34,647 bases of DNA from Sulfitobacter sp. (GTDB taxonomy: Bacteria > Pseudomonadota > Alphaproteobacteria > Rhodobacterales > Rhodobacteraceae), in the NCBI GenBank assembly GCA_013002405.1, contig JABDKA010000103.1, positions 1 to 34,647 of the forward strand, written 5' to 3'. The stretch's first letter is position 1. Every line of letters begins with the position of its first letter. The notes under the pieces were generated by a model. It was given only the letters and a program-made list of their open reading frames with translations. It was not told the DNA's origin and did no database searches. Shown one piece after another: positions 7,484 through 33,917 of this stretch. Made by a program: the position numbers and the translations under genes.

Positions 7484-8637
7484 TACCCCCTGACACGCCG
7501 TGGCTGACCGATCCCGCCGCGCGGGCGGTTTGTGCCGCCCTGCAGGCCGAGGGGCACCATCTCTATTTCGTGGGCGGTTGCGTGCGCAACGCGCTGTTGG
7601 GGCGTCCTGTCAGCGATGTGGACATGTCGACGAACGCGCGGCCCGAAGAAGTGACGCGTCTGGCCGAAGCCGCAGGACTGAAGGCCGTGCCGACCGGGAT
7701 TGACCATGGCACTGTCACGGTGGTTTCGGACGGACACCCGTTTGAGATCACAACCTTCCGCAGGGATGTCGAAACCGATGGGAGGCGCGCGGTGGTCGCC
7801 TATTCAGACGATATTGCCGATGACGCGCGGCGGCGCGATTTCACCATGAACGCACTTTACGCCACGCCAGCGGGTGAAATCGTCGATCCACTGGGCGGTC
7901 TGCCCGATCTGCGGGCGCGCCGGGTCCGGTTTATCGAAGACCCCGCAGCGCGGATCCGGGAGGACTATCTGCGCATCCTCCGCTTCTTCCGTTTCACGGC
8001 GACCTATGGCGATCCAGCCCTTGGTTTCGATGCGGAGGCGCTTGCGGCAATCGCAGCGAATCTCGACGGATTAGAGACACTTTCCGCCGAACGCCTGGGC
8101 CACGAGATGACGCGCCTGCTGACCGCGCCCGAACCTGCACCAGCGGTCGCGGCGATGCGGCAGGTGGGCGCGCTGGGCCGGGTTTTGCCGGGTAGCGATG
8201 ACCGCTGGCTGGGGCCTCTGGTGCATCTGGAGCAGGAAGTAGGCATTCCCGCGGACTGGCGCGCCCGTCTGGCGATCCTCGGAGGTGAGGACGTGGCAGT
8301 GTGGCTGAGGCTGAGCAAGGCAGATGGCCGGATGCTGGAGAAGCTGACGGCCCACGGGTTCGGAGCGACGACCCTTGCCGAGATTGCTTATCGCGAAGGG
8401 GTAGAGGTGGCGCAACAAACCCTTCTGATCAGGGGTGCAGTGGCCGCAGAAATCCCGCAAAAGTGCTTTTTAGACACGATAACCGACGCTGCGAAGGCCG
8501 AATTTCCGATCAGGGCAGCGGACCTCATGCCGCGCTACAAAGGCCCCGCGCTGGGGGAAAAGCTGCGCGCGCTTGAGGCGGATTGGATCGCCTCGGGCTT
8601 TGCCCTGACGGCGCAGGAACTGATCGACCGGGCCTGA
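7459..8637 (+). CDS. cca: CCA tRNA nucleotidyltransferase / poly(A) polymerase family
   Basis: About 392 residues. The nucleotidyltransferase core shows GGCVRNALLG (39-48), catalytic DVD (53-55) and the RRDFTMNAL motif (125-133) with downstream DYLRILRFFRF (169-179), typical of class II enzymes. Alphaproteobacterial members add CCA to tRNA 3' ends; a poly(A) polymerase role cannot be excluded from sequence. The start at ATG 7459 (MGRTDENLIP) overlaps the end of the CoA-type Nudix gene by 25 bp. The frame extends further upstream without homology. Confidence 0.92.
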   Translation: MGRTDENLIPPDTPWLTDPAARAVCAALQAEGHHLYFVGGCVRNALLGRPVSDVDMSTNARPEEVTRLAEAAGLKAVPTGIDHGTVTVVSDGHPFEITTFRRDVETDGRRAVVAYSDDIADDARRRDFTMNALYATPAGEIVDPLGGLPDLRARRVRFIEDPAARIREDYLRILRFFRFTATYGDPALGFDAEALAAIAANLDGLETLSAERLGHEMTRLLTAPEPAPAVAAMRQVGALGRVLPGSDDRWLGPLVHLEQEVGIPADWRARLAILGGEDVAVWLRLSKADGRMLEKLTAHGFGATTLAEIAYREGVEVAQQTLLIRGAVAAEIPQKCFLDTITDAAKAEFPIRAADLMPRYKGPALGEKLRALEADWIASGFALTAQELIDRA

Positions 8638-8808
8638 CAGGCTCGACAGAAGGGCCATCTTCCGCTAGGTCAGGAAACAGACACATGGAGGGTGCAAGAT
8701 GTATCGCGGGATCTGGTTCAGCTGAGGCTGGCATAATCCATCCCCGACCGGTCCGCCGCAGCGGTGCCGGTTCATCTTGCTTATTCTGACCCAAGGCTCT
8801 TGTTCCCC

Positions 8809-10647
8809 ATGTTCCGTTTCTTTGAAAAACTTGTCGATCCCTACGTTCCCTATCAGGAGACGGATAGGCCGCCGCGTGACATCTGGCCCTTCATGAAAAG
8901 CTATACCCGGCCCTTCCGGCGGCTTTTCGTACTGGCTGGGATTATGTCGATTATCGTTGCCGCGATCGAGATCGGGCTGATCTACTACATGGGTCGGGTG
9001 GTCGACCTGCTCAACGCCGGGCCCGAGGAGATGTGGGCGCGCTACGGCACCGAACTGATCCTTGTAACGGTCTTCATCCTGCTGATCCGGCCCCTGATGC
9101 AGGCCATCGACGTGATGCTGCTGAACAATGCGATCATGCCCAACGTCGGCACGCTGTTTCGCTGGCGGGCGCATCGGCAGGTGTTACGGCAATCGGTGGG
9201 CTGGTTCGAGGATGATTTCGCCGGTCGCATCGCCAACCGCATCATGCAGACGCCGCCGGCAGCGGGGGAGGTGGTGTTTCAGACGTTCGACGCGATATCC
9301 TATTCGCTGGCCTACCTTGTCGGGGCGGCGATCCTGCTGTCGACCTCCGACTGGCGGCTGCTGCTGCCGCTGCTGGGCTGGTTCGTCCTTTACGGTGCGC
9401 TGATGCGCTGGACTATCCTGCGCGTCGGGCCCGCGTCACAGGCGGCGTCGGACGCGCGGTCTGCGGTGACGGGCCGTGTGGTGGATGCCTATACCAACAT
9501 CCATTCCGTAAAGATGTTTGACCATCACGACATGGAGGAAAGCGTTGCCCGCGAGGCTATCGAGAACGCGCGAAAGACCTTTCAGGTGGAGATGCGGATC
9601 TACACTGTGATGGACGTGGTGCTGACCGTTCTGAACGGTCTGCTGATCGTCGGTGTTGTGGGTTGGGCAATGTGGCTTTGGAATGCGGGAGAGGCAAGCG
9701 TCGGCGTGGTTGCTGCCGCCTCTGCCCTGACGCTGCGGCTGAACGCCATGACCGGGTGGATCATGTGGGCGCTCTCCTCCTTTTTTCGCGAACTGGGTGT
9801 CGTGGCCGAGGGGATGGAGACCATCGCCCAGCCGATCACCCTGGTCGATGCGCCGGGTGCAAAGCCGCTGAAGCTGACCGATGGCAGGATCGACATGCGC
9901 GGCGTGACCCACCACTACGGGCGGCGGTCGGGTGGATTACAGGGGGTCGATCTGACGATTGAGCCGGGTGAACGGATCGGCCTCGTAGGGCGGTCGGGTG
10001 CCGGAAAATCGACCCTGATCAAGCTTCTTTTGCGGTTTTACGAGGCCGAGGGCGGTCAGATCTGCATCGACGGGCAGGACATCACCAGGGTCACGCAGGA
10101 CAGTCTGCGCAAGCACATCGGGATGGTCCAGCAAGAGGGATCCTTGCTGCACCGCTCGGTCCGGGAGAACATCCTTTACGGTCGCCCCGACGCGACGGAG
10201 GAGCAGATGATCGCCGCCGCGAAGCAGGCGCAAGCACATGAGTTCATCCTTGATCTGCAAGATCCGGAAGGGCGGCAGGGGTACAATGCGCGCGTGGGCG
10301 AACGGGGCGTCAAACTCTCTGGCGGTCAACGGCAAAGGATCACGCTGGCGCGGGTCATCCTCAAGGATGCGCCGATCCTGTTGCTGGATGAGGCGACAAG
10401 CGCGCTTGATAGTGAGGTGGAGGCGGCGATTCAGGAGACGCTTTACGGTATGATGGCGGGCAAGACCGTGATCGCCATCGCGCACCGGCTATCGACCATC
10501 GCGGAAATGGACCGGATCATCGTGCTGGATGACGGCAGGATCGTGGAAGAGGGCAATCACGACGCGCTTTTGATGCGGGGCGGGCTATATGCAGATTTCT
10601 GGGGCCGCCAGTCGGGCGGTTTCCTGAAGCTGGACGTTGCCGAGTGA
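8809..10647 (+). CDS. ABC exporter half-transporter (permease-ATPase fusion), first of a pair
   Basis: A 612-residue inner-membrane protein. An N-terminal six-helix type 1 exporter domain (about 35-330) precedes a complete ATPase. Walker A GRSGAGKST is near 394, LSGGQRQR near 504, Walker B ILLLDEAT near 524 with catalytic Glu, and switch His in IAHRLS near 557. The start is ATG 8809 (MFRFFEKLVDPY); an upstream GTG at 8764 adds unconvincing residues. Its stop overlaps the next half-transporter's GTG start by 4 nt, so the two are translationally coupled and probably heterodimerise. The substrate is unknown: lipid or drug export is typical of the family. Confidence 0.92.
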   Translation: MFRFFEKLVDPYVPYQETDRPPRDIWPFMKSYTRPFRRLFVLAGIMSIIVAAIEIGLIYYMGRVVDLLNAGPEEMWARYGTELILVTVFILLIRPLMQAIDVMLLNNAIMPNVGTLFRWRAHRQVLRQSVGWFEDDFAGRIANRIMQTPPAAGEVVFQTFDAISYSLAYLVGAAILLSTSDWRLLLPLLGWFVLYGALMRWTILRVGPASQAASDARSAVTGRVVDAYTNIHSVKMFDHHDMEESVAREAIENARKTFQVEMRIYTVMDVVLTVLNGLLIVGVVGWAMWLWNAGEASVGVVAAASALTLRLNAMTGWIMWALSSFFRELGVVAEGMETIAQPITLVDAPGAKPLKLTDGRIDMRGVTHHYGRRSGGLQGVDLTIEPGERIGLVGRSGAGKSTLIKLLLRFYEAEGGQICIDGQDITRVTQDSLRKHIGMVQQEGSLLHRSVRENILYGRPDATEEQMIAAAKQAQAHEFILDLQDPEGRQGYNARVGERGVKLSGGQRQRITLARVILKDAPILLLDEATSALDSEVEAAIQETLYGMMAGKTVIAIAHRLSTIAEMDRIIVLDDGRIVEEGNHDALLMRGGLYADFWGRQSGGFLKLDVAE

Positions 10648-12488
10648 GGTCTACTTTGCGTATCTCCGATTGGATCAATCCCTTTACACCCGCCGAAGGG
10701 CCACCGCCGCAGACCCTTGGCGCCTTCATGCGCTGGTGCCTGAACGGGGCCTGGCCGGTGCTGTTTTTGGCCGCTTTTCTTTCCGCCCTTGCCGGCGCGA
10801 TGGAGGCGGGAACGGCGCTGATCCTTGGGTTGGTGATCGACGCGACGGTCAGCGCAGGGCCGGAGGCTTTTTTCGACGGGCGCAATCTGGGTCTGATCCT
10901 CGGTGCTCTGGGCTTTTTCCTGATCGCGCGGCCGTTGCTTTTTGGCCTTTCGTCGGCCTCCAACGCGATCATGGTGCAGCCAAATGTGAACCCTCTTGTG
11001 CTCAGCCGTCTGCACCGCTGGACACTGGGCCAGAACGTTGGCTTTTTTGATGATGATTTCGCGGGCCGTATCGCGCAAAAGCAGATGCAGGCGGCGCGTG
11101 CGGTCACCGATGTAGCCTCCGAAGTGATCAACGTAGTCTGTTTTGCGCTCGCCTCCCTTGTGGGTTCCGTCCTGCTGCTGGCGGCGATCGATTGGCGCGT
11201 CGCGATTGGCTTCGCGGTCTGGCTGGTGGCATACCTGGCCCTGATCCGCTGGTTCCTGCCACGCGTGCGACGGCGGTCAGCGGGCCGCGCGGGGGCACGG
11301 GCGATGGTGTCCGGTCAGGTCGTTGATACGATCACCAACGTGAAGACCGTGAAGCTCTTTGCGCATGCGGACCACGAGGACCGCGCGGCGCTGGGCGCAA
11401 TGGAAACCTTCCGTCACAGGGCGCTCGAATTCGGCTATCTCGCCGCCGGATTCCGGTTGGCGCTGATGAGCCTGGCGGGCGTCCTGCCCGTGCTGCTGAT
11501 CGGTGGGACGATCCTGCTGTGGCAGCGCGGCTGGGCCAGCGAGGGGGACATTGTGGCTGCCGGGGCCATCTCCATTCGTATTGCGCAGATGACGGGGTGG
11601 GTCAGCTTCACGCTGATGGCAATCTATTCCAACGTCGGCGAGATCGAGGACGGGATGCGCACCCTGACACCGCGCGTCCGGCTGGAGGATGCCGAGGATG
11701 CGCAGCCGCTGGAAGTGGCGCGAGGCGAAATTGTTTTTGACGATATCGGCTTTGCCTACGGGCGGGAAACGGGTGGTGTGGATCAAATCAATCTGCGGAT
11801 TGCGCCCGGAGAGAAGTTGGGGATTGTCGGGGCCTCAGGTGCGGGCAAGTCGACACTGGTTGCCCTGCTCTTACGGCTCTATGAGGCGGAAAAGGGGCAT
11901 ATCGCCATCGACGGGATGGACCTGCGCGACGTCACACAAGAAAGCCTGCGACGGCAGATCGGCATGGTCACCCAGGAGACGGCCATGTTCAATCGCTCTG
12001 CACGAGACAACATTCTTTACGGGCGGCCCGAGGCCACCGAAGAGGAGCTGATCGCAGCGGCCAAGCGGGCGGAGGCGCATGACTTCATTCAGGACCTGCA
12101 GGATTTCAAGGGGCGCACCGGCTACGATGCGCACCTCGGGGAGCGGGGTGTGAAGCTGTCGGGCGGCCAACGGCAGCGGATCGCACTGGCGCGCGCCATC
12201 CTCAAGGATGCGCCGATCCTGGTGCTGGATGAGGCGACGAGCGCGCTCGATTCGGAAGTCGAAGCATCGATTCAGGAAGCGCTGCACCGGGTGATGGAGG
12301 GCAAGACCGTGCTGGCCATCGCGCACCGGCTCTCCACCCTCACGGAAATGGACCGGATCGTGGTCCTGGACGCAGGCCGGATCGTGGAAAGCGGCACGCA
12401 CGATGCCTTGCTGACCAAAGGTGGGCTTTACGCGCGCTACTGGCAGCGGCAGTCGGGCGGTTTCCTGAACCTAAAGGCGGCTGAATAG
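10644..12488 (+). CDS. ABC exporter half-transporter, second of a pair
   Basis: A 614-residue paralog of the preceding gene with the same layout: membrane domain about 35-330, Walker A GASGAGKST near 396, LSGGQRQR near 504, Walker B ILVLDEAT near 525, switch His in IAHRLS. Both ATP sites look intact in both subunits, unlike heterodimers with one degenerate site. The start is GTG 10644 within the stop of the upstream gene (GTGA). NBD regions are close even at DNA level (for example CTCAAGGATGCGCCGATCCT in both), and both end in a QSGGFL motif, which points to a local duplication. Substrate unknown. Confidence 0.92.
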   Translation: MRSTLRISDWINPFTPAEGPPPQTLGAFMRWCLNGAWPVLFLAAFLSALAGAMEAGTALILGLVIDATVSAGPEAFFDGRNLGLILGALGFFLIARPLLFGLSSASNAIMVQPNVNPLVLSRLHRWTLGQNVGFFDDDFAGRIAQKQMQAARAVTDVASEVINVVCFALASLVGSVLLLAAIDWRVAIGFAVWLVAYLALIRWFLPRVRRRSAGRAGARAMVSGQVVDTITNVKTVKLFAHADHEDRAALGAMETFRHRALEFGYLAAGFRLALMSLAGVLPVLLIGGTILLWQRGWASEGDIVAAGAISIRIAQMTGWVSFTLMAIYSNVGEIEDGMRTLTPRVRLEDAEDAQPLEVARGEIVFDDIGFAYGRETGGVDQINLRIAPGEKLGIVGASGAGKSTLVALLLRLYEAEKGHIAIDGMDLRDVTQESLRRQIGMVTQETAMFNRSARDNILYGRPEATEEELIAAAKRAEAHDFIQDLQDFKGRTGYDAHLGERGVKLSGGQRQRIALARAILKDAPILVLDEATSALDSEVEASIQEALHRVMEGKTVLAIAHRLSTLTEMDRIVVLDAGRIVESGTHDALLTKGGLYARYWQRQSGGFLNLKAAE

Positions 12489-21560: not shown

Positions 21561-22529
21561 ATGGACAAGTTTCCCGACCAAAAACGCGCAGTTCAGTACC
21601 TTTATCCGCCCGCCGACCCCTACGATCAGCGGATGCTGGCGGTTGGGCAGGGTCATCAAGTCTATGTTGAACAATGCGGCAACCCTGACGGGATACCAGT
21701 GGTGGTTCTGCACGGCGGTCCGGGGGGCGGATGCAGCCCCTCGATGCGGCGCTATTTCGATCCTTCCCGATTCCGGGTGATTCTTTTTGACCAGCGCGGT
21801 TGCGGGCGATCCAAACCCCACGCGTCGGTCACTGACAACACCACCTGGCATCTGGTCGCCGATATCGAACTTATTCGTGCCACTCTGGGGATAGATCAAT
21901 GGGTGGTCTTCGGGGGCTCTTGGGGGGCGACGCTGGGCCTGATCTACGCGGAGACGCATCCGGAGGCGGTACGCGAGCTGGTGCTGCGCGGCGTCTTCCT
22001 GATGACCAAGACGGAGCTGGACTGGTTCTACGGCGGCGGCGCTGGCCGCTTCTGGCCCGAGGTCTGGGACCGTTTCGTCAGCCTTGTGCCCAAGGATGAA
22101 AGGCACGATCTGATCGCGGCCTACCACCGGCGTCTCTTTTCCGGCGATTTGCCGATGGAGCAACGCTTTGGCAAGGCCTGGGCGGCTTGGGAAAATGCCC
22201 TTGCGTCGATCTATTCGACCGGCTCGGCGCACGAGGGTCCGGCAGAATATGCGCGGGCCTTTTCGCGGTTGGAAAACCACTACTTTACCAACAAGGGTTT
22301 TCTGGAAAGCGACGGTTACATCCTTAAGAACGTCGACCGGATTGCCCACGTGCCGGGCACGATCGTGCAGGGCCGATATGACATGATATGCCCGCCGACC
22401 AGCGCCTATGCCCTGTCGAAAGTCTGGCCCAAGGCGGATCTGAAAATGGTGCGCAACGCGGGCCATGCCCTTTCGGAACCGGGGATCAGTGCCGAGCTGG
22501 TGCGCGCCATGGACAGGATTGCCACCTGA
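21561..22529 (+). CDS. pip: Proline iminopeptidase (peptidase family S33)
   Basis: A 322-residue cytosolic alpha/beta hydrolase that removes N-terminal proline from peptides. The oxyanion motif HGGPGGG is at 51-57, nucleophile S120 is in GGSWGA, the acid is in GRYDMICPP and the histidine in NAGHALS. Length and motifs are normal for the family. The start ATG 21561 follows a TATATA sequence by only 8 bp, so its leader must be very short or its promoter lies inside ubiG. The stop overlaps the next gene's ATG by one base (TGATG). Confidence 0.92.
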
Positions 22530-23395
22530 TGAGCAGCCGCAGAGGCCATATCGACCGTCGTGCGCTCTTTTCCAGCGCTGCCGCCGCTGCCCTGCTGGCC
22601 GCGACCGGGGTCGGTGCCGCAGGTGCCCCGCAAAAGGGCGGCCGTCTGCGCATGGCGCTGTCGGGTGCCACGCGCAGCGACAGCTGGACCGACGGCGATG
22701 GGCTGTTCATGCAGGTCGCGCGACAGGGGATGGTTTTTGAGACGCTGACAGAGGTGGCCGCCGACGGCACACTGCAGGCGGAACTGGCCCTCAGTTGGAC
22801 CGCGGACCGCGATGTCCGTGTATGGACCTTTGATTTGCGGCCCGGCGTGACTTTCCATGATGGTTCGCTCTTCACCGCTGAGGATGTGGTGGCCAGCCTT
22901 TCGACGCGGTTGGAAGGTGAGGTTGAGGCGATGGGCGCAGCGCAGGTGCGTATCACCCTCGCTGCGCCTATGCCATCGCTGCCTTTGATCCTTGCGCAGC
23001 CGGATTTCGTGATCCGGCCCGCCCACGCGCTGGATGCGGGGATCGGGACCGGGCTCTATGCGGTGAAGTCTTTCACGCCGGGTCAGCGACTGCTCACCCA
23101 ACGTATCGCGCGGCATTACAAGGACGGGCGCGCAGGCTGGTTCGATGAGGTTGAGCTTACTTCCATCCCCGCCGAAGAGGTGCGCGGCCAGGCTTTGCGG
23201 GAAACCCTCGTCGATGCGGCCGATCTGACAGATGCGGCCCTTTTGAAGGACCTGCCCGAGGTCATAGCCCAGCCGGACCGTCATCACCCTGCCTATGCCC
23301 TGCTGTCGCAGGTGGTACAGCCTGCGCAGGTCAGCCACCTGCGCCTGCTCGATAACCTGCGCGGCCCGCAACGCTGGTGGTTTGCGCAAAGCTAA
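22529..23395 (+). CDS. Short family 5 solute-binding-like protein
   Basis: 288 residues, roughly half the length of normal peptide/nickel-type substrate-binding proteins. A Tat/Sec-type signal (DRRALFSSAAAAALLAATG) comes first. Domain I landmarks follow: VFETLTEVAADGTLQAELA, WTFDLRPGVTFHDGSLFTA and EDVVASL. An RPAHALDAGIGTGLYAV segment corresponds to the start of the GTGPY-type loop. The large second lobe is missing, and the tail (about 215-288) is unlike the family. There is no leftover sequence between its stop and ybaK (10 bp), so it is not a recent frameshift. It has no adjacent permease or ATPase and is coupled to pip. A periplasmic binding role without transport is possible. Confidence 0.8.
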   Translation: MSSRRGHIDRRALFSSAAAAALLAATGVGAAGAPQKGGRLRMALSGATRSDSWTDGDGLFMQVARQGMVFETLTEVAADGTLQAELALSWTADRDVRVWTFDLRPGVTFHDGSLFTAEDVVASLSTRLEGEVEAMGAAQVRITLAAPMPSLPLILAQPDFVIRPAHALDAGIGTGLYAVKSFTPGQRLLTQRIARHYKDGRAGWFDEVELTSIPAEEVRGQALRETLVDAADLTDAALLKDLPEVIAQPDRHHPAYALLSQVVQPAQVSHLRLLDNLRGPQRWWFAQS

Positions 23396-24099: not shown

Positions 24100-24489
24100 C
24101 TATGTCGCGAAAACCGCCCAGCCCCAGATGATTGCCAGATAGGTCAACTGGTGGGCCAACTGGTCCGCTCCGAAGGCGCGCCAGTATCCGGCATCGTCGG
24201 GACCATACTGGGTGAGTTCCGCATGCCGTCCCTTAAGGAAGTCGATCACGTAGTGCAGCAGCAGCTCTATGCCGCAGATGACGACGGACAGGATCAGGGG
24301 CACGCCCAAAGCCAAGAAAATCAACAGCGATAATCCCGCATGCAGTGCCACGTGTTGCAGCCGCCCAAGATGCAGGAAACGGCCCCGTGCCATCAGCATG
24401 CGCGGGGTCTGTAGAAAAAAATCTGCAAACAGATGCTTCACCTGCAGCAAAGCCAGCAGGATCAGAGCCGTCTGTACTGGCGCAATCAT
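24100..24489 (-). CDS. DUF3307 family membrane protein
   Basis: 129 residues with about four hydrophobic segments. The N-terminal QVKHLFADFFLQT, the central HYVIDFLKG and the C-terminal ADQLAHQLTYL are the charged and histidine-rich membrane motifs I associate with DUF3307. The function of this family is not established. GGAG lies upstream of ATG 24489. It is divergent from the 1010-residue ABC-like gene (98 bp apart), which might mean shared control. Confidence 0.8.
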   Translation of the reverse strand: MIAPVQTALILLALLQVKHLFADFFLQTPRMLMARGRFLHLGRLQHVALHAGLSLLIFLALGVPLILSVVICGIELLLHYVIDFLKGRHAELTQYGPDDAGYWRAFGADQLAHQLTYLAIIWGWAVFAT

Positions 24490-24587: not shown

Positions 24588-27500
24588 TTGCGAAACGACT
24601 GGTACTGGACGGATTTCATCGAACGTTCTCTCTTCGAATTCATCTGGAAATACTCCAAGCGAGAGCAGCTGACGCTTCTGGCCGTCACGGTGACCTTGTT
24701 CCCGCTCCTTTACCTGACCCTCGAACTTCCCAAGCGGATCATCAACGATGCGATCGGCGCCGCGTCTGACTCCATCAATGTGCTGGGCGTTGAGATGGGG
24801 CAGATCATGTTCCTGATGCTGCTTTGCGGGTTCTTCCTGCTGGCGGTGCTGGTCCACGGCATCATGAAGATGCGGATCAACACCATGAAAGGGGTTCTTG
24901 CCGAACGCCTGTTGCGGCGTTTTCGCTATACGCTGATCGCCCGCATCCTGCGCTTTCCCGCGCCCTATTTCGAACGGACCAGCCAGGGGGAGCTGGTCTC
25001 AATGGTCACCTCCGAGTCCGAGCCGATGGGCGGGCTGATGGGGGATGCGGTGGCCCAGCCGGTCCTGCAGGCCGGTCAGATGCTGACCATCCTCAGCTTT
25101 CTTTTCCTGCAAAGCTGGGCCTTTGGTCTGGCCGCCTGTGCGCTGATCCCGCTGCAAGCCTGGCTGATCCCCAAACTGCAGCGCCAGATCAACATGCTGA
25201 ACAAGAAACGGATCATCCAGGTCCGCGCGCTTGCTTCCGAGATCGGGGAGGGGGCCGTGGGGGCCAGTACCCTGCGCGTCAACGGCGGCTGGCGCTACCG
25301 CATGGCGATGATTTCGGAACGCTTGGGCCTGGTCTACAACCTTCGGTTTGAGATCTACCAGAAGAAGTTTTTCATGAAGTTTCTCAACAACTTCATTGGT
25401 CAGCTCACGCCCTTTTTCTTTTACGCCATTGGCGGTTACCTTGCGATCACCGGCCGGATCACGGTGGGTGCCCTTGTGGCCGCGCTTGCCGCCTACAAGG
25501 ATCTGTCGAGCCCCTGGAAAGAGCTGTTGGCCTATTACAACCAGCTGCAGGACATGTCGCTGCGCTGGGACACGATCACCGAAAGGTTCGCGCCAGCGGG
25601 CATGATTGAAAAGGAACACTTCGAAGGGGAGCCGGAGAGCCTGCCGAATCTGACAGGGGACATCACGATCAAGGATGTCTACGTTGAAGATGCCGATGGC
25701 AACGTGGTGCTGGACAACATCAACGTCACATTCGAGGCGGGACAGACCGTTGCCGTGACAGCCGGGAGTGATGAGGACCGGCGCGCCCTGGCCGAGGTGC
25801 TGACCCGCGAACTGGTGCCTGTCAGCGGCGGGATCACCGTGGGGGACCAGCCGCTTTCCGATATGCATCAAAGCGTGATCGCCAAACGGATCGGCCACGC
25901 AACATCGCGCCCCACTATGTTCATGGGCAGTTTCGGTGAAAACGTGGTCTTGCCGCTGAAACTGCGCCCGGAGATAAGTGATCAGCCTTCGCCTGAAGCG
26001 CTGGAAAGCCTGAAGGCGGGGAACAGTCCCGACATGCTGAACGCCAACTGGGTGGATCTGGAGCCCGATGCAATTCGCGATGACCGCGAACTGCGGGCCT
26101 GGTGGCGTACTCTGGTTCAGGGGATGGAGATTGATACCACACTCTTCAAAAGGGGCATTGAGCAAAAACTTGATCCAGAGGCCCATCCCGATCTGGCCAC
26201 AGCACTGATTGAACTGCGCCCCCGCGTTGCCGCCTCAGTGGCAGGGGCCAATCTGCAAGATCAGGTGCATTTCTTTGACCCGGCGGCCTATAATCCTGCC
26301 CTTCCGGTCGCCGAGAACCTTATCTTCGCCACGCCCCGCCAACCGATCACGGCGGGGCTGTTGGAAGAGCAGACCGATTTCTTGCAGCTTCTGTCCGATC
26401 TGAAGATCGAGGCGGAGCTTTTGCAGCTGGCCTCGGACATCGTTGAACTTCTGCGCCAGATCTTTGGCCTGGACGGAACAGACCATCCGCTGTTCCGGAA
26501 ACTGGGTCTGGATGCGACGACCTTCGAGAACGCGGTTTCCCTGATCCCCAAGCAGGAGGACGGCGGCGAGCTGACGGTCAGGGACAAGGCACAGCTTTTG
26601 GCGGTGCCTTTCGTGATCTCAGCGGAAAAGCTGGGATCGGCTTTCCCTGACGACATCATCGAACGCATTCTGCAAATACGCGCAAGCCATGCCCACGCCC
26701 TGCAGGAAAGCATGGCGGGGCTCTTCTGTCCCATCGCGGCGGATGAGCCTGTGATCGGGCTTTCGGTTCTGGAAAACGCTCTTTTCGGCAAGTTTTCCGA
26801 AGGCAGCGGCAGCAAGGCCGATGATCTGCGCAGCCTGCTGGACGATCTGCTGCACGAGGCGGGGCTTGATGGCTACGTGCTTGAGTTGATTTTTGACATG
26901 CCGCTGACGCTGGGCGGCAGTAACCTGCCCGCCTCTTTGGTGGAGACGCTGGCGATCAGCCGTGCCACGATCAAAAGCCCCGACGTGCTGGTGCTGGACA
27001 GCGTCCTGTCAAGTTATGACGCGGAAATTCGCAGCAAGCTGCACGGCAAATTGCGGGAACTATTGCCCAAAACGACGATCATCTGCCTGGAGCCCAGTTT
27101 TGCCGACACCAGCGGATTTGACGCGCAGTTCGTGATGCAGAAGGGCCGGATCGCAACGGTTGAGGCCGGTCTGTCGGAAGAGGACGACAGTAAGGTCAGC
27201 GCCGATCTGGCGCGCAAACTGAGTGCGCTGCAGGACACCGATCTGTTTTCGGGCCTGGAACGCAGGCAGCTGAGGCTACTGGCTTTCGGGGCGCGCTGGT
27301 ACACGGCCAAACCGGGGGAGTATGTCTTTTATAAGGACGATGATCCATCCAGCGGCGCCTATCTGGTGGTCAAGGGGGAGGCGGAGTTGTTGCTGCCCCG
27401 CGAAGGTGAGGACGACCTGCTGATCGCCACCTCCGGCCCCGGCGCACTGGTGGGCGAGCTGGGTCTGATCCGGAATGTGCCACGCGCGCTGGATATGCGG

Positions 27501-27620
27501 GCCAAGAGTGATCTGACCTGTTTGCGGATCGGTGCGGAAGAGTTTCTGGACGTGGTCGGTAACGATGCGCGCACCGCCTACAAGCTGCTGCAGGTGGTGG
27601 CGGGCTACGTATCTAACTGA
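24588..27620 (+). CDS. ABC-exporter-like protein with degenerate ATPase and C-terminal cyclic-nucleotide-binding domain
   Basis: 1010 residues. A type 1 exporter membrane domain (hydrophobic segments about 27-48, 72-92, 160-195, 262-304) precedes an NBD-like region from about 358. Its first strands look right (DGNVVLDNINVTFEAGQTVAV). However, the Walker A position reads TAGSDEDRRAL (391-401) with no GKS/T. A roughly 300-residue insertion follows. The signature position reads LTLGGSNLPASL (773-784). Walker B LVLDSV (801-806) has Ser for the catalytic Glu, and the switch-His position reads ICLEPSF. ATP hydrolysis is therefore unlikely. A CRP-type domain occupies about 881-1003, with phosphate-binding cassette GELGLIRNVPRA (956-967) intact. 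The start is TTG 24588, six nt after AGGGA. It probably acts as a cyclic-nucleotide-responsive membrane protein; the transported substrate, if any, is unknown. Confidence 0.85.
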   Translation: MRNDWYWTDFIERSLFEFIWKYSKREQLTLLAVTVTLFPLLYLTLELPKRIINDAIGAASDSINVLGVEMGQIMFLMLLCGFFLLAVLVHGIMKMRINTMKGVLAERLLRRFRYTLIARILRFPAPYFERTSQGELVSMVTSESEPMGGLMGDAVAQPVLQAGQMLTILSFLFLQSWAFGLAACALIPLQAWLIPKLQRQINMLNKKRIIQVRALASEIGEGAVGASTLRVNGGWRYRMAMISERLGLVYNLRFEIYQKKFFMKFLNNFIGQLTPFFFYAIGGYLAITGRITVGALVAALAAYKDLSSPWKELLAYYNQLQDMSLRWDTITERFAPAGMIEKEHFEGEPESLPNLTGDITIKDVYVEDADGNVVLDNINVTFEAGQTVAVTAGSDEDRRALAEVLTRELVPVSGGITVGDQPLSDMHQSVIAKRIGHATSRPTMFMGSFGENVVLPLKLRPEISDQPSPEALESLKAGNSPDMLNANWVDLEPDAIRDDRELRAWWRTLVQGMEIDTTLFKRGIEQKLDPEAHPDLATALIELRPRVAASVAGANLQDQVHFFDPAAYNPALPVAENLIFATPRQPITAGLLEEQTDFLQLLSDLKIEAELLQLASDIVELLRQIFGLDGTDHPLFRKLGLDATTFENAVSLIPKQEDGGELTVRDKAQLLAVPFVISAEKLGSAFPDDIIERILQIRASHAHALQESMAGLFCPIAADEPVIGLSVLENALFGKFSEGSGSKADDLRSLLDDLLHEAGLDGYVLELIFDMPLTLGGSNLPASLVETLAISRATIKSPDVLVLDSVLSSYDAEIRSKLHGKLRELLPKTTIICLEPSFADTSGFDAQFVMQKGRIATVEAGLSEEDDSKVSADLARKLSALQDTDLFSGLERRQLRLLAFGARWYTAKPGEYVFYKDDDPSSGAYLVVKGEAELLLPREGEDDLLIATSGPGALVGELGLIRNVPRALDMRAKSDLTCLRIGAEEFLDVVGNDARTAYKLLQVVAGYVSN

Positions 27621-27635
27621 TCCTGCGATGCGGCC

Positions 27636-28754
27636 CTAAATAAGAGGTTTGAGAGCCTCGAAGAGCCTTGTTATATGGTCGGCCCTGGTCACCGCACCGG
27701 GAGAGAGGCGCAGGATCCGCCCGCGGCAATCGACGTGAATGTGTTGATCCCTGAGTTGGTTTACCAGATGAACCGGGTCAGTTGCGGCGGGCAGCTCCAG
27801 CATGATTGACCCGCCACGCATGGTCTCCTCCGTCGGCGTGGCGAGGGGGAGGGTTGCTTCCTCGGCAGCTTCGATGATCTTCGCCGTCAGGGCGCGGTTG
27901 TGGTTGAGCAGATCGCTTTGTGCTGCCTGCCAGCGGAGGGCGGGAATAGAGCCTACACAGGCCAAAACCGAAGGAGTGCCATGCTCGAACCGGCGGGCAT
28001 CGGGCGCATACTCGAAGGCGTCGAGATCCCAGGAAAAGGGATCGTCCTGGGAAAACCAGCCGCGCAGTTCTGGTCTGACCACCTCAATCAGATCCGGACG
28101 CATCTGGATGATGCCCGCACCCGGTGTGCCGCAAAGCCATTTCAGGGATGTGGAGATGACGAAATCTGCAGGTGCTTCTTTGAGTGAAAAGGGAATAATC
28201 CCAATGCCCTGCGTCAGGTCCACTCCAATAAGGGAGTTCATTCGGCGCCCGTGGGCGATAAGTGTCTCTAAATCGCAGCGATGGGACGATGTTGAGGTGA
28301 CAAAGGTAAGAAGTGCCAGCCCGACCTCTTCGTCCCAGGCGGCGATCATGTCCTCATCCCGGACCCAATGATCACCCTGCCGGACAGGAACCGTGTGGAG
28401 CGTATAGCCCAGCCGTTCCTGCATCCCACTCAGCAGAAAGTGCAAAGAAGGGAAGCAATCGGCAGCGATCAGCACCTTCTTTTCCTTTAGAGTCTGTTCT
28501 GGCAGGCCGCCGAGGATGGAGAAGAGTGCGGTGGTGACATTTTCCGCGCTGGTCAGGGACCCTTCCGGCGCGTCGATCAGGGCACGCCATAGGTCAAGGA
28601 ACTCGCCCCGCCGTTCAAGAACCTGCGGCCATTGTGCGTCGTCCATGGCGCCCCAGATATGGGAGAATTCCGAGAGTGCCGCCGCCATGTCCCTGGCCTT
28701 GCCGGGATAGAGCCCGATGGAGTGGTAGAGGAAATAGGCGGGATCATCGGACAT
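27636..28754 (-). CDS. Kynureninase-like class V aminotransferase-fold PLP enzyme
   Basis: 372 residues, with PLP lysine K205 in STSLKWLCGTPGAG and cofactor-contact D179/Q182 in GVDLTQGIG. The downstream GWFSQDDPF and RFEHGTPSVLAC segments are what I expect of kynureninases (hydrolysis of kynurenine to anthranilate and alanine). The genes around it are transporters, not other tryptophan-degradation genes, so a related beta-elimination or aminotransfer reaction is equally possible. It is the last gene of the leftward operon, 24 bp after the ATPase, and ends 15 bp from the convergent 1010-residue gene. Confidence 0.82.
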   Translation of the reverse strand: MSDDPAYFLYHSIGLYPGKARDMAAALSEFSHIWGAMDDAQWPQVLERRGEFLDLWRALIDAPEGSLTSAENVTTALFSILGGLPEQTLKEKKVLIAADCFPSLHFLLSGMQERLGYTLHTVPVRQGDHWVRDEDMIAAWDEEVGLALLTFVTSTSSHRCDLETLIAHGRRMNSLIGVDLTQGIGIIPFSLKEAPADFVISTSLKWLCGTPGAGIIQMRPDLIEVVRPELRGWFSQDDPFSWDLDAFEYAPDARRFEHGTPSVLACVGSIPALRWQAAQSDLLNHNRALTAKIIEAAEEATLPLATPTEETMRGGSIMLELPAATDPVHLVNQLRDQHIHVDCRGRILRLSPGAVTRADHITRLFEALKPLI

Positions 28755-28778
28755 GGATATCAGTCTCTAATATGCCTT

Positions 28779-29573
28779 TCAGGCCCATTCCTGGTAAGGA
28801 TCAGGTAGGGGGATGGCCTGCAACAGTTCCCTTGTATAGGCCGCCTGCGGCGCTTCGAACAGCTGGGCGGTTTCGCCTTCTTCGACAATCTCACCCTGGT
28901 GCAGAACCAAGGTGCGGTTACAAAGCCGTCGAATGACAGAGAGATCGTGGCTGATGAAGGCCAACGTGAGACCGAGCTCCTTCACCAGACCACCCAGCAG
29001 ATTCAGCACTTGCGCCTGGCTTGAGACATCGAGGCCCGAGACGATCTCATCCGCCAGGATGAAATCGGGTCGCAGGGCAATGGCCCGGGCGATGCCGACG
29101 CGCTGGCGCTGTCCGCCGGAGAGTTCGTGTGGAAAGCGCCGGGCGAAGCTGCGGGGCAGGCCGACCAGATCCAGCGCCTCATCGACCCGTGTTGTGAGCC
29201 TGTCCATCCCGTGCAATTTCAAAGGGCCAGCAATGATGCCACCCACCCGGCGGCGCGGGTTCAGGGATGACATGGGATCCTGAAAAATCATCTGGAAGCG
29301 GTGGCGCATAGGGCGCAGCTGGTTCTCTGTCAGGTGGGTGATGTCGGTCCCTTCGAAGGTGATGCTGCCCCCCGTCGGTTCCAGCAAGCGCAACATCGCC
29401 CGTCCCAGTGTCGACTTGCCGGAACCGGAACCGCCGACGATGCCCAGCACCGCGCCCCTGGGCACATCGAAGGTGAGGCCCCTCAGGATCTCGATGCGGG
29501 GAGCAGACCCTAACAAAGGCTTTCGGGTCATATCCGGCAGCGAAAGGCGCAGGTCACGAACCTGGTACATCAT
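28779..29573 (-). CDS. ABC importer ATPase, OppF/DppF type
   Basis: 264 residues. Walker A is GGSGSGKST, the Q-loop [12 protein letters not shown] is characteristic of the peptide/nickel class, the signature is LSGGQRQR and the Walker B strand is FILADE with catalytic Glu. The following IVSGLD replaces the common PTSALD, a minor oddity. The start ATG 29573 overlaps the OppD-type stop in an ATGA. It pairs with the adjacent ATPase as a heterodimer driving uptake through the two permeases upstream. Confidence 0.93.
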
Positions 29574-30439
29574 GTGCCAAACCTCACGTCATGCAGGCGC
29601 ACCTCTTCCTCAACAGCGCTGATCACGCTTTCCGGCACGGGCGTCAGGCTGCCGGTAGGGTCGAGGTAAGTAGGTGTCGCGGCGAGCAATGCACGCGAGT
29701 AGGGATGAATGGGCCGCATGAAGAAACGGTGCATCCGCGCTTCCTCGACCACCTTTCCGGCGTAGAGAACCGACAACGTGTCACAGACCTTGGAAACGAC
29801 GCCAAGGTCGTGCGTGACGAAGAGGAGCGAGGTGCCGTGCCGCACCTGCATATCGGCGATCAGGCGGAGGATCTGTTTCTGCACCGTCACGTCGAGCGCG
29901 GTGGTGGGTTCATCCGCGATGATAAGCTTGGGCTCAGCCGCGAAGGCGGAGGCAATGAGGATGCGCTGCCGCATGCCCCCCGACAGTTCGTGCGGGTAGG
30001 ACCGCATGACGCGGGCGGGGTCGGGGATCTGCACCTCTCCCAGCAGTTCCAGCGCCCGCGCTTCGGCGTCAGACCTGGTCCAGGCCAGGATATCGACCAG
30101 CCGCCGGGTGATCTGTGGGCCGATCCGCTTTGAGGGATTGAGCGCGGTGAGCGGATCCTGCGGGATCAGGGCCGCCGTGGCCCCAATGCGCTTGCGGCGG
30201 GTGTCGTGGGGCAGGGCCAGAAGGTTCTCCCCATCAAGCCAGATCTCACCTCCCGTCACCTGTAACGCGCGGGGCAGGGTACCCAGCACCGCCTTGCCGA
30301 TCATTGACTTGCCCGCGCCGCTTTCGCCCACAAGTCCGTGCACCTGCCCCTGTGCCACGTCGAGCGAGACGGAGCGCAGGATGGTCACTCCGGATTTCAG
30401 ACGTACGGTGAGGTTCCGGATGGAGAGAAAGCCGCTCAT
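29570..30439 (-). CDS. ABC importer ATPase, OppD/DppD type
   Basis: 289 residues with Walker [10 protein letters not shown] (Met after Ser rather than the usual Thr), Q-loop [11 protein letters not shown], signature LSGGMRQR and Walker [13 protein letters not shown]. The C-terminal [12 protein letters not shown] motif is the mark of peptide-class ATPases. The short tail after it contains no cysteines, so the Fe-S-type CxxC extension of some OppD proteins is absent. The start at 30439 overlaps the permease stop in ATGA; the frame is open 33 codons upstream without homology. Confidence 0.93.
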
Positions 30440-31287
30440 CTCAGCACCGGGTCGAAACGGTCCTTCAGCCCTTCGCCCAGTTGGGAAAAGCTTAGGACGG
30501 TGAGGAAGAGAGTGATCAGCGGGAATACCAGAACCCACCAGGCCTGGTGTACGCTTGTCCGCCCTTCGGCGATCATGCCGCCCCAGGTGGGGCTGTCAGT
30601 GCTGATCGACAGGTTCACGAAGCTCAGGATCGCCTCTACGATGACGGCGATGCCCATTTCCAGCGTCAGCAGGGCCACGATGGTGGGCAGGACGTTGGGC
30701 AGGATTTCAGTGAGCATGGTGCCGAAGCGGGTGCGTCCGGCGACCTGGGCGGAGGCGACGTAGTCCATGGCGCCCTGGCTCATCGCTTCGGCCCGAACCA
30801 CGCGGGCAAAGCGGGTCCAGTCGATGACGACGATGGCGATGATGATGGAGACAAGGCCCGGGCCAAGGACGGCGATCAGCAGAATCGCAAAGAGGACCGG
30901 GGGAAAAGCCATCCATATGTCGACAAAGCGGCTGATGATCCGGTCGGGCCAGCCGCGGTAGTAGCCCGCGATGAGGCCCAGCGTTGCGCCGATGAGGCAA
31001 GTAAGCGTTCCCGCGACGAGTGCCACAATCAGCGCCAGCCGGGTGCCGTAGAGGATGCGGCTGAGAACGTCACGGCCAAGGCTGTCGGTGCCGAGCCAAT
31101 AGCCCGGTTCGGTTCCCGCCACCCAGAAGGGGGGCATCCGGCCAAGGAAGAGGTCCTGCATCAGAGGGTCCTTCGGTGCGACCCAAGGGGCGAGGAGGGC
31201 GCCAAGAACCAGCAGCGTCAGCCATCCGCCGGAGAGCCAGAGGCGCAGGCCGATGGGCCGTCTGACCTCCCCCCGTGCGTCACGCAT
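30436..31287 (-). CDS. ABC importer permease, DppC/OppC type
   Basis: About 283 residues with six membrane segments. The N-terminal extension ends in GTDSLGRDVLSRILYG, the family hallmark. The ATPase-contact (EAA) loop is DYVASAQVAGRTRFGTMLTE. The chosen start is ATG 31287 (MRDARGEV), overlapping the DppB-type stop by 8 bp; an upstream in-frame start at 31314 would overlap more deeply. Confidence 0.93.
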   Translation of the reverse strand: MRDARGEVRRPIGLRLWLSGGWLTLLVLGALLAPWVAPKDPLMQDLFLGRMPPFWVAGTEPGYWLGTDSLGRDVLSRILYGTRLALIVALVAGTLTCLIGATLGLIAGYYRGWPDRIISRFVDIWMAFPPVLFAILLIAVLGPGLVSIIIAIVVIDWTRFARVVRAEAMSQGAMDYVASAQVAGRTRFGTMLTEILPNVLPTIVALLTLEMGIAVIVEAILSFVNLSISTDSPTWGGMIAEGRTSVHQAWWVLVFPLITLFLTVLSFSQLGEGLKDRFDPVLR

Positions 31288-32290
31288 GGCGCAGCCTGGG
31301 GTTGAGGATGACATAGAGCATGTCGACGAAGAGGTTCACGAGGGTGAAGAGCAGCGCGAACAGGATCACGATGCCCTGGATCAGCGGCAGGTCGCGGTTG
31401 ATCACCGCGTCGATGGCCATATTGCCAAGCCCCTCATAGCTGAAGAGCCGTTCGATAATCACTGTACCGCCGATCAGGAAGGTGAACTGCACCCCCACCA
31501 GAGTAAGAGTCGGCAGGACGGCGTTGGGAAGTGCTTCGCGTGTGATGACGTAGTTCTCACCGTACCCCTTGGTGCGGGCGAGGGTCACGTAATCAAGGTG
31601 CATGGTCTCTTTCAGCGACTGCTTGAGCAGCTGCGCGATGATGGCGGCCAGAGGAATGGCCAGCGCCAAGGCAGGCATAAACATGTGCCCGATCAGATCG
31701 GCAATCACGTCGAAACGGAGGCGCACCAGCGCCTCGAAGAGGTAGAAGTTGGTGGAAAAGTCGATGTTGAGCGAGGGGGAGATGCGGCCGGAAATGTGGA
31801 AGACGGGCCAGAGCACGCCGAAAAGCAGGATCAGGATCAGCCCCCAGAGGAAATCGGGGATAGAAAGAGCCATACCCGCGGTCACGTCCACCGCGCCTTC
31901 GGTCTTGGTATCGCGGTAGCGGGTGCCGGTCAGGGCGAGCGCCCCGCCGATGGCCACGGCGATGAAGAGAGCGACGATAGACAGCTCCAGCGTAGCGGGG
32001 AGGCGACCGAGGACGAGGTCAGAGACAGGCTGGCGAAGGGAGATGGAGGTGCCGAAGTTTCCCTGCATCACGCCGCCCAGCCAAATGAGGAACTGTTCGA
32101 AGATCGACTTGTCGAAGCCGTACTGTTCTTCCAGCCGGGCGATGTCGGCGTCCGTCGCGCCGGGGGGCAGCATCATGGCAATGGGGTTGCCGGGGACGAC
32201 CCGGATCACCACGAAGACGATCACGGCGACACCGAACAGGGTGACGATGGTGGTGACAAACCGGATCAGGAAGGCGCGGAGAAGGGTCAT
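31280..32290 (-). CDS. ABC importer permease, DppB/OppB type
   Basis: 336 residues with six membrane segments. The N-terminal FVVIRVVPGNPIAMMLPP is typical of DppB. The EAA loop is DYVTLARTKGYGENYVITRE, followed by ALPNAVLPTLT. The first gene after the twin hairpins, so its expression may be lower than that of the binding protein. It pairs with the DppC-type permease that overlaps its 3' end. Confidence 0.94.
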   Translation of the reverse strand: MTLLRAFLIRFVTTIVTLFGVAVIVFVVIRVVPGNPIAMMLPPGATDADIARLEEQYGFDKSIFEQFLIWLGGVMQGNFGTSISLRQPVSDLVLGRLPATLELSIVALFIAVAIGGALALTGTRYRDTKTEGAVDVTAGMALSIPDFLWGLILILLFGVLWPVFHISGRISPSLNIDFSTNFYLFEALVRLRFDVIADLIGHMFMPALALAIPLAAIIAQLLKQSLKETMHLDYVTLARTKGYGENYVITREALPNAVLPTLTLVGVQFTFLIGGTVIIERLFSYEGLGNMAIDAVINRDLPLIQGIVILFALLFTLVNLFVDMLYVILNPRLRHA

Positions 32291-32319
32291 TCAGGTGACA
32301 GTCGGTGCTAGAGAAAAGC

Positions 32320-32380
32320 GCCCCGGACGTGATCCGGGGCCTTGCGCAGTTTTTTCAAGGTCCCGGGTCAAGCCCGGGAC
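32320..32380. repeat. Twin hairpins between binding-protein and permease genes
   Basis: The first hairpin is CCCCGGA (32321-32327), loop CGTGA, TCCGGGG (32333-32339). The second is GTCCCGGG (32360-32367), loop TCAAG, CCCGGGAC (32373-32380). Both belong to the CCCGG-x5-CCGGG class of palindromes scattered between genes in many alphaproteobacteria (recollection). A T-run (TTTTTTC, 32351-32356) lies between them on the + strand. In the mRNA (- strand) they sit just 3' of the binding-protein gene. Confidence 0.7.
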
Positions 32381-32390
32381 ATTTGGCGCC

Positions 32391-33917
32391 TTACGCCGGG
32401 GTCATCAGGTGCGGCAGCAATGCGCCTGAGCGGTGCGGAACCACCTTCACCGCAGAGGTATGGAGGATCGGCTGGACGTATTGCAGCAGCGGAATGACTT
32501 CCGCGTTCTCCGCAATACTGCGGTCCACTTCCTTCCAGCCCGCGATGCGCTTGGCCTCATCCGCCTCGCCCCAGAGGGGCAGGATCTTGTTGAAGGTATC
32601 CTCGCCGTCCCAGACGGAGTGGGGGGAGGGGCCGAACATGGCGAATCCGGTCGAAGTGGTCGGATCGCCCACCGAGTTGCCCCAGTTGTAGAAGGCCGCC
32701 GGTGCCAGCGTATCCGCCGCGCGCAATTCGTAGTGCTTGGCGATCTCATAAACCTCGATCTCTGCCTCGATCCCGACGCGCCGCCAGAGACCGACGATGG
32801 CCTGGATCATCTCGTAATCCTTGGGTTTGAACCCGCGCGTGGTCTGGATGGTAAAGCGTACTGGATTATCGGGTCCGTAGCCCGAGGCGGCCAGCAGTTC
32901 CTTGGCCTTATCGGGGTTGTACTCCACCTTGATGGTGTCGTCGTAGGCGATGTAATCGGGCGTTTGCAGCGTGTCGATGGGCACGCCATAGCCCGACAGG
33001 AGCCGTTCGATGATAAGCGGCTTGTCAATGGCGTGGGCCGCAGCCTTGCGCACATTTGGGTCGGTCATCACTTCGATGTCGTTGAGGAAGATCATGCCAA
33101 TGTCCGAGATGGGCGCTGCCGTACCTTCGATCCCGTCCTTGGCCTTGAGACGGTCAAATTCCTCGTAGGGGACTTCAAGCGTGACGTGGCTGTTGCCGGA
33201 TTCGATCTCGGCCACGCGGGAGGCGGCATCGGTCACGAACTTGATGGTCACGTTCTTGAACGCCGGTGCGCCGCCCCAGTAATTATCGTTGGCCTTCAGG
33301 GTAACAAAGGCGTTCCGCTCAAACCGGTCGACCATGTAGGGGCCGGAGCCGACGGGCTTCGCTTCGAAGCCCTCTGCGCCCACCTCCTCATAGTACTTCT
33401 TGGGCAGGACGTAGCCGGTCAGGAAGGACATCCACTTGAAGAAGGTCGGCTCGAACTCGGGCATGTCGGCGGTGACACGGTTGCCATCGGACTTGATGTT
33501 GGTGACCTTCCCCCAGATGAACTGAATGGGGTTACCGGTTTCGGCCTTGCCCGCGCGTTCAAGTGACCAGGCGACATCCTCGGCGGTCAGGGGATCGCCG
33601 TTATGCCAGGTCACACCCTCGCGCACATCCATCCAGATGGCGGTATTGTCGTCGTTCCAGCCGTAGTCGGTGATGATGCCGGAGCCGAAGCTGAGGTCCG
33701 TGTTCTGGGGGATGAAAAGGTCAAAGACCGATTGGTAGAACCCCTGAATCGTCGGGTTCACCGCGGAGGGGCCAACGGTCGGGTCCCAGCTGGGCAGGTT
33801 CACGTTGTAGGCGATGACCAGCTCGTCGATTGTCTGAGCGAAGGAGGGCAGGCCGACCGTGGTAAAGGCCGCTGCGGCGGCGGAGGATTGCAGAAGGCTT
33901 CTTCTGGAAAGTTTCAT
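32391..33917 (-). CDS. ABC importer substrate-binding protein, family 5
   Basis: 508 residues, full length for the peptide/nickel-type periplasmic family. The N-terminal MKLSRRSLLQSSAAAAAFTT is a Tat-like signal with cleavage near FAQ. Family landmarks are DVREGVTWHNGDPLTAEDVAWS, AKPVGSGPYMVDRFE, NDNYWGG and the late IQAIVGLWRRVGIEAEIE. The ligand cannot be predicted: di- and oligopeptides, nickel chelates, opines and sugars all use this fold. GGGAG lies before ATG 33917. It sits 38 bp after the FAD oxidoreductase and 100 bp before the DppB-type permease, separated from it by two hairpins. Confidence 0.93.
   Translation of the reverse strand: MKLSRRSLLQSSAAAAAFTTVGLPSFAQTIDELVIAYNVNLPSWDPTVGPSAVNPTIQGFYQSVFDLFIPQNTDLSFGSGIITDYGWNDDNTAIWMDVREGVTWHNGDPLTAEDVAWSLERAGKAETGNPIQFIWGKVTNIKSDGNRVTADMPEFEPTFFKWMSFLTGYVLPKKYYEEVGAEGFEAKPVGSGPYMVDRFERNAFVTLKANDNYWGGAPAFKNVTIKFVTDAASRVAEIESGNSHVTLEVPYEEFDRLKAKDGIEGTAAPISDIGMIFLNDIEVMTDPNVRKAAAHAIDKPLIIERLLSGYGVPIDTLQTPDYIAYDDTIKVEYNPDKAKELLAASGYGPDNPVRFTIQTTRGFKPKDYEMIQAIVGLWRRVGIEAEIEVYEIAKHYELRAADTLAPAAFYNWGNSVGDPTTSTGFAMFGPSPHSVWDGEDTFNKILPLWGEADEAKRIAGWKEVDRSIAENAEVIPLLQYVQPILHTSAVKVVPHRSGALLPHLMTPA

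Follow-up and report, generated by a model that had tools for sequence, protein, structure and literature searches.

The stretch of DNA considered here, called the window, comprises 34,647 nucleotides of contig JABDKA010000103.1 from Sulfitobacter sp. (assembly GCA_013002405.1). On its forward strand, at positions 24588–27620, lies a gene for a protein of 1010 residues in which a membrane domain of the ATP-binding cassette (ABC) exporter type, a degenerate nucleotide-binding domain (pseudo-NBD) and a cyclic-nucleotide-binding (cNMP-binding) domain are fused, the same architecture being found in relatives. The gene begins with TTG at 24588, preceded by an AGGGAA stretch, and its stop codon occupies 27618–27620; many relatives begin ten residues later at a Met, where the window encodes Ile (ATC). 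An initial annotation, made from the sequence alone, had placed the gene at these coordinates and on this strand with a frame intact over 1010 codons, which was correct. Sequence comparison assigns the protein to a family that is devoid of ATPase motifs and coupled, by operon or by fusion, to a cNMP-binding domain; the reading favoured here is that it would act as a membrane-embedded unit for which a cyclic nucleotide serves as the switch.

Domain architecture and the degenerate ATPase

The membrane domain (residues 15–335; 24630–25592) is the most conserved part of the family and was recognised by Pfam as ABC_membrane over residues 62–300 (E = 4.6e-17, 63 bits against a cut-off of 28), as expected from the exporter membrane domain proposed initially. 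The cNMP-binding domain (residues 880–1008; 27225–27611) matched PF00027 (cNMP_binding) over residues 908–991 (E = 7.8e-14, 51.9 bits against a cut-off of 27.5). Between them, ABC_tran was matched just over residues 375–475 and below its cut-off (E = 0.022), and no Pfam match to a C39 peptidase was found in the protein. PHROGs returned generic ABC transporters. The PDB matches fall into two separate stretches, residues 99–455 and 765–860, which indicates that approximately 300 residues are inserted into the NBD.

The first half of the pseudo-NBD (residues 352–470; 25641–25997) holds the Walker A region, the Q-loop region and the first 'GEN' unit, and the second half (residues 769–862; 26892–27173) holds the signature, Walker B and switch regions, all of them degenerate apart from Asp 804. 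The Walker A position (25761–25784) reads AGSDEDRR, the signature LSGGQRQR is replaced by LPASLVET, the Walker B aspartate (D804) is followed by S805 in place of the catalytic Glu, and the column of the switch His is occupied by P836. The loss of Walker A, catalytic Glu and switch His had been reported in the initial annotation and all three are indeed gone; the loss of the signature and the insertion at residues 471–768 had been overlooked.

Alignment of relatives revealed that the loss extends through the family. The alignment contained 168 rows, one for each distinct sequence encoded by the 174 loci whose called gene reached 700 residues or more; a custom gene caller was used, shorter calls (membrane-domain-only genes and contig-end fragments) were dropped, and at least one gene was counted twice with different starts (L208 and L245). 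None of the 168 rows retains the SGG core (a single row, L196, has LTGGQ), and a full Walker A (GxxxxGK[ST]) was found in five rows, the Walker B DE pair in eight and the switch His in 23, no row having all the motifs. For the 79 Rhodobacteraceae rows from the genome collection, which represent the closest relatives only among the matches listed, the counts are zero for Walker A, two for DE, zero for His and zero for SGG, so that orthologs with canonical motifs were not encountered there. In the 89 rows from outside the collection, GxxxxGK is retained in 36, the catalytic Glu in 39 and the switch His in 23. The 36 rows mostly carry Asp or Glu at the magnesium-binding Ser/Thr position, and in many of the 89 the Walker B aspartate has become Asn or Ser. 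The proposal of a former ATP-driven exporter with lost ATPase motifs finds support in these counts, as does the conclusion that the NBD is catalytically dead, and an active exporter is ruled out by the lost motifs.

Family profiles were compared by hhalign with a profile of canonical NBDs (13 rows, with each of the two exporters in the window entered twice), and both halves of the pseudo-NBD were matched at 99.8%, to template positions 7–110 and 121–232 of 240. These positions place the insertion (residues 471–768; 25998–26891) between the Q-loop/'ENI' segment and the pre-signature helices. A known extra domain was dismissed, as the insertion gave no Pfam match in the three members searched and a best PDB E-value of 0.54 or worse. 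The insertion contains two extra copies of the NBD's own Q-loop/'ENLLFG' segment, namely unit 2, VHFFDPAAYNPALPVAENLIFATP (26265–26336), and unit 3, LFCPIAADEPVIGLSVLENALFGKF (26721–26795). In hhalign of family profiles, units 2 and 3 match each other with E = 5.9e-15, units 1 and 3 with 1.3e-7 and units 1 and 2 with 2.8e-7; control pairs sharing no residues gave E of 0.096 or higher, and two other high-scoring pairs share residues and are therefore no controls. Matches of units 2 and 3 to the canonical segment are weak (8e-5 and 6e-5), two control segments giving 0.19 and 0.28. Judged by these alignments, the pseudo-NBD is still an NBD by kinship, rebuilt through internal expansion and more than a degraded copy; the NBD-like middle region of the initial annotation is upheld by the kinship of both halves.

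The membrane domain behaves differently from the NBD parts. Mean pairwise identity among 59 relatives below 60% identity is 49% in the membrane domain and 33–35% in the NBD parts, whereas 11 canonical exporters, a mixture of paralogs, gave 26% and 48%, respectively; the conservation pattern appears inverted relative to active exporters. Fourteen short relatives (293–413 residues) stop after the membrane domain, and all 14 share K94, R113, E143, Q190, R213, R253 and K260 with the family, as well as K264, G282, G283, G294, A298 and P309; one of them is, by Pfam, a full ABC_membrane domain alone. Because these NBD-free relatives keep the invariant residues, the membrane domain apparently serves an independent function. 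An exporter-type membrane domain without an NBD is also encoded at 7214–8095 of contig C6 of the window's genome (G000; locus L165). Among the matches listed, short relatives occur in 14 of 100 Rhodobacteraceae genomes, all of them within the 20 genomes that carry the glycosyltransferase gene GT28 (see below).

At least 566 stretches in the genome collection encode a relative, and the 80 loci listed match over residues 11–994 or more, so the family is not a product of chance. The ratio of nonsynonymous to synonymous substitution rates (dN/dS) was obtained for 15 pairs of relatives. In the seven close pairs it is 0.00–0.16 in all regions with a defined value, the NBD parts included (one cNMP value is undefined), and from these low ratios the protein appears to be maintained under purifying selection, the loss being old. 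Eight distant pairs gave 0.11–0.94 and are little informative, as synonymous divergence is near saturation and some pairs seem to mix subfamilies. Summed over all 15 pairs, the ratio is 0.17 for the membrane domain, 0.29, 0.34 and 0.31 for the NBD parts and 0.26 for the cNMP domain. The initial annotation had argued from the open frame that the loss was not recent, and the family-wide motif loss and the close-pair ratios point the same way.

Association with cyclic-nucleotide binding and glycan genes

The phosphate-binding cassette of the window protein, GELGLIRNVPRAL (27453–27491), keeps the Glu (E957) and the Arg (R966), and the 88 fused relatives are alike in this respect: all have Glu or Asp at the first position, and 87 have the Arg. 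The strict cassette is present in 69 of 78 cNMP-binding proteins that are encoded separately in the family. For one of these (L152), the sensor domains of PKG and PKA are among the best PDB matches, and that of SthK is matched as well. The fused domain is closest to such separate family proteins, with a median score of 98.7 bits; other cNMP-domain proteins of the window's genome reach no more than 43.1 bits.

The fusion is one form of a widespread two-gene unit. In a sample of Alphaproteobacteria the family was found in 129 of 385 genomes at E = 1e-60 or better, and in a sample of the phylum (398 genomes) 31 of the 32 positive genomes are alphaproteobacterial. The class sample yielded 59 loci together with their flanks, a single fused one and 58 unfused ones, the latter being a hand-picked part of the loci from the 129 positive genomes in which the distant loci L249–L251 were not counted. 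A gene for a cNMP-binding protein lies directly downstream in 57 of the 58 unfused loci and one gene further on in the sole miss (L221). When 59 rows were placed in a tree, the fused forms fell on one side of a single branch (support 84), and one change suffices; L245, labelled split in the tree yet fused by length and match, stands directly beside the fused clade (99). Fused relatives and the widespread two-gene unit rule out a fusion peculiar to one genome. The tie to a cNMP domain made in the initial annotation extends well beyond this protein, by fusion or adjacency, and a partnership with a cNMP-binding protein is supported by gene order. L249–L251 encode proteins of 850–891 residues in which matches to family queries begin at about residue 342–347, the membrane domain being unmatched; one of the three lies 11 bases from a cyclase-like gene.

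Class III cyclase domains were matched 16 times in the window's genome. Near family members, cyclase genes confirmed by Pfam lie downstream of the cNMP gene (L149 and L228), upstream (L184) or two genes off (L073), and in Rhizobium johnstonii 3841 an annotated cyclase-like gene (RL_RS30035) is located about 10 kb away.

The survey of gene neighbourhoods, which had been suggested initially, also uncovered glycosyltransferase genes upstream of 48 of the 58 unfused loci, as a rule divergent; such genes are missed where contigs end. The set at the reference locus comprises a GT28-type and two GT4 glycosyltransferases, a histidine phosphatase, a MurG-like protein and a weak match to polysaccharide deacetylase, and in 36 of the 58 loci one of the first three downstream genes encodes a homolog of the PF12692 methyltransferase found there. 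Over 385 genomes, the family and the GT28 gene (GT28a) occur together in 123, the family alone in six, GT28 alone in four and neither in 252 (counts uncorrected for phylogeny), and the two are found together in 52 of the 55 family codes having either. Among 100 Rhodobacteraceae genomes, all 17 that are positive for the family at E = 1e-100 or better carry the GT28 gene, and in seven of these genomes the two genes lie 20–34 kb apart on one contig. Three Rhodobacteraceae genomes with GT28 alone carry membrane-domain-only relatives.

Family members were also found in R. johnstonii 3841, where RL_RS29990 is a separate cNMP protein, and in Sinorhizobium meliloti; TM1040_RS03855 is the ortholog in Ruegeria TM1040. 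In PMC11103875, pRL110056 of R. leguminosarum is listed as one of the O-antigen biosynthesis enzymes that matter for colonisation of roots. If RefSeq genes are counted along pRL11, gene 56 would putatively correspond to the nucleotide-sugar dehydrogenase next to the cluster. The glycosyltransferase cluster, which is located outside the window, is on these comparisons the strongest functional clue, and a link to a surface-glycan pathway is supported.

Proposed mechanism and alternatives

The explanation that accounts best for these results, and to which we would give about even chances, is that of a catalytically dead, ABC-exporter-like membrane protein acting with a cNMP-binding domain in a surface-glycan pathway. 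Genomic comparison supports it through the motif loss, the NBD kinship, the internal repetition, the constraint on the membrane domain, the adjacency or fusion to cNMP-binding proteins and the co-occurrence with glycosyltransferases. The protein would dimerise like an MsbA-type exporter, and the pseudo-NBD, enlarged by the extra Q-loop/helical copies, would not hydrolyse ATP and would still rest against the membrane domain's coupling loops. The cNMP domain, which is part of the window protein and a separate neighbouring protein in most unfused relatives, would bind the product of a class III cyclase and, once bound, would move the pseudo-NBD, upon which the membrane domain would change between two states. 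In doing so, the membrane domain could handle or present the product of the co-occurring glycosyltransferases or organise enzymes at the inner membrane. A bolder version, which we regard as rather improbable, is that these proteins form a class of their own among ABC-fold membrane machines: a cyclic nucleotide sensed by the dedicated domain would replace ATP as the switch, acting via a pseudo-NBD grown out of copies of its Q-loop/helical segment, and second-messenger levels would thereby gate the movement of surface glycans or glycolipids across the inner membrane. The NBD-free paralogs in these genomes would then be ungated.

Several observations weigh against the preferred explanation. Four rows (three genes) of one genus, L206–L208 and L245, combine Walker A with DE, though without signature or switch His; this genus is possibly a nucleotide-binding intermediate. 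As these four rows keep both motifs and 36 of the 89 outside rows keep GxxxxGK, nucleotide binding may persist in parts of the family. In the cassette of the window protein the Ala expected two residues past the Arg is Leu, and Glu has become Asp in 30 of the 88 fused relatives. Cyclase-like genes lie near only 11 of 190 loci, and the distant L249–L251 are without an adjacent cNMP gene. The exporters used in the comparison of conservation are mixed paralogs and no matched set, and the counts of co-occurrence with GT28 carry no correction for phylogeny. Finally, in the draft genome of the window the pseudo-ABC gene is on contig C220 and the glycosyltransferases are on C146, which also carries genes for the PF12692 methyltransferase and an MscS-type channel, as well as what visual inspection suggested to be nucleotide-sugar dehydrogenase and importer genes.

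Among the alternatives, a pure scaffold, in which the membrane domain transports nothing and anchors glycosyltransferases (in some lineages a methyltransferase) that the cNMP domain merely assembles or releases, would fit the operon-like order, the co-occurrence with several glycosyltransferases and the lost ATPase motifs. Nevertheless, constraint is strongest on the membrane domain, and its invariant charged residues persist in the NBD-free short relatives, for which a translocation or lipid-handling path is a better fit than a passive anchor, and we consider the scaffold unlikely, at roughly one chance in several. Slightly less likely again is a secondary transporter or channel, driven by the proton gradient or acting as a gated conduit like SbmA/BacA, with the pseudo-NBD and cNMP domain as its gate. 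Membrane-domain-only relatives in the same genomes would speak for it, as would SbmA, presented in PMC13316013 as a proton-driven relative of ABC membrane domains; against it, no SbmA/BacA Pfam match was obtained at E up to 1, and SbmA-type proteins, by the same account, are without coupling helices, whereas the window protein and the NBD-free relatives share conserved putative coupling loops (near E143 and R213). The pseudo-ABC protein might further be the regulatory half of a heterodimer powered by an ATP-hydrolysing exporter encoded elsewhere, in line with the possibility raised initially that another ATPase binds it. Degenerate half-sites are common among heterodimeric exporters, and two canonical half-exporters lie 12 kb off within the window. 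When 2664 called genes at 190 loci were screened with strict motifs, however, canonical exporters turned up in the window alone, so there is no constant neighbour and a constant canonical partner gene is rejected for these loci; the ATPase near the glycosyltransferases of R. johnstonii sits with a substrate-binding protein and two permeases and hence belongs to an importer, and in the window protein even the Walker A half-site is lost. A heterodimer is accordingly given a low probability.

Lower still stands residual ATP binding or slow hydrolysis through unconventional residues: the motifs retained among the 89 outside rows would permit it, but Walker A is absent from the window protein and the 79 Rhodobacteraceae rows and the SGG core from every row. 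A membrane effector of phage defence of the Pycsar type, triggered by a cyclic nucleotide, is very improbable. Class III cyclases do lie beside some family members, three scanned cyclases match PADLOC PycC models (as class III cyclases may generally), and one separate cNMP protein matches Pycsar TIR-effector models via its sensor domain. The window protein itself gave no PADLOC match at E up to 0.01, for which reason a defence effector was dismissed, and the distribution is that of a conserved glycosyltransferase cluster, unlike patchy defence islands. A decaying pseudogene could equally have lost its ATPase motifs; the frame open over 1010 codons and the dN/dS of the seven close pairs rule out a recent one and leave decay in general hardly any probability at all.

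Turning to known systems, the MsbA lipid flippase (TIGR02203) is the best NCBIfam match, with 126.7 bits for the window protein and 183.7 bits for the Rhizobium member, although both scores are far below the cut-off of 602 bits and, unlike MsbA, the window protein has no intact ATPase motifs; in the PDB sequence search other exporters (PCAT1) outscore MsbA. In heterodimeric exporters that have a degenerate site, one site still works and neither P-loop is lost. The window protein resembles them in having degenerate catalytic residues in an exporter NBD, and differs in having lost Walker A, signature, Glu and His and in having no constant partner gene. Kinship of the sensor to cyclic-nucleotide-gated channels and to PKA and PKG is suggested by the matches of L152, but the effector here is an ABC-type membrane domain, neither channel nor kinase.

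A domain of the cyclic-nucleotide-binding type is also fused to an ABC exporter in HetC of Nostoc PCC 7120, where, according to PMC10986499, it is N-terminal and required for function; HetC further has a C39 peptidase, depends on an ATPase residue and shows ppGpp binding in vitro. Compared with HetC as described there, the window protein has its domain at the C-terminal end (908–991), no peptidase match and no remaining ATPase motifs. The SbmA/BacA-like peptide transporters (SLiPTs) are characterised in PMC13316013 as ATP-independent, with an ABC-exporter-type membrane domain, a glutamate ladder, and neither NBD nor coupling helices. The membrane domain and the NBD-less relatives of the present family are comparable to them on that account, whereas the window protein retains an enlarged pseudo-NBD and a cNMP domain. 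By these descriptions, the features combined in the window protein are found together in neither HetC nor SbmA. No description of the pseudo-ABC/cNMP family was found in the literature searched, mainly open-access articles.

ABC exporters, which rank with the largest protein families, are commonly taken to run as ATP engines. In the present case an entire family, with members in 129 of the 385 alphaproteobacterial genomes sampled, has retained the machine and dropped the engine, with the membrane domain more constrained than the NBD. Whether another ligand can drive the ABC conformational cycle becomes testable in it, and marine roseobacters and rhizobia (R. johnstonii 3841 and S. meliloti) might possess a direct, non-transcriptional output of cyclic nucleotides on surface glycans. 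With regard to the initial annotation as a whole, the observation of a dead exporter tied to a cNMP domain was confirmed and its interpretation supported in part: the protein may be a sensor, a channel or a scaffold, and the motif screen yielded no constant gene for a partner ATPase.

Paralogs and neighbouring genes

A 50% paralog of the pseudo-ABC gene is located on contig C233 of the window's genome (L180; genes at 5143–6045 and 6042–9143), where it overlaps a gene for an Rce1-like CPBP protease (PF02517). In 25 of the subfamily's 30 loci a protease gene of this kind comes next, as a rule together with two more conserved genes, annotated as accD and folC in Ruegeria sp. AD91A.

The neighbours within the window are ordinary. 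A divergent gene for a DUF3307 membrane protein (24100–24489, reverse strand) is a conserved companion: of the 54 loci in the subfamily of the window protein, 49 have it immediately upstream. A kynureninase-like, pyridoxal-phosphate-dependent enzyme and a peptide-type ABC importer are encoded at 27636–33917 on the reverse strand, convergent with the pseudo-ABC gene. No RNA family or tRNA was detected within the window, and a scan of it for promoters and terminators performed no better than on shuffled sequence. The canonical ABC half-exporters mentioned above are arranged in tandem (8764–10647 and 10644–12488, forward strand), with intact motifs and open reading frames overlapping by four bases. 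A solute-binding family 5 protein is encoded at 22529–23395 (forward strand; 288 residues as called, 335 in the longest open reading frame); it matched positions 2–183 of the 368 of the Pfam profile, and its C-terminal half therefore seems to be missing.

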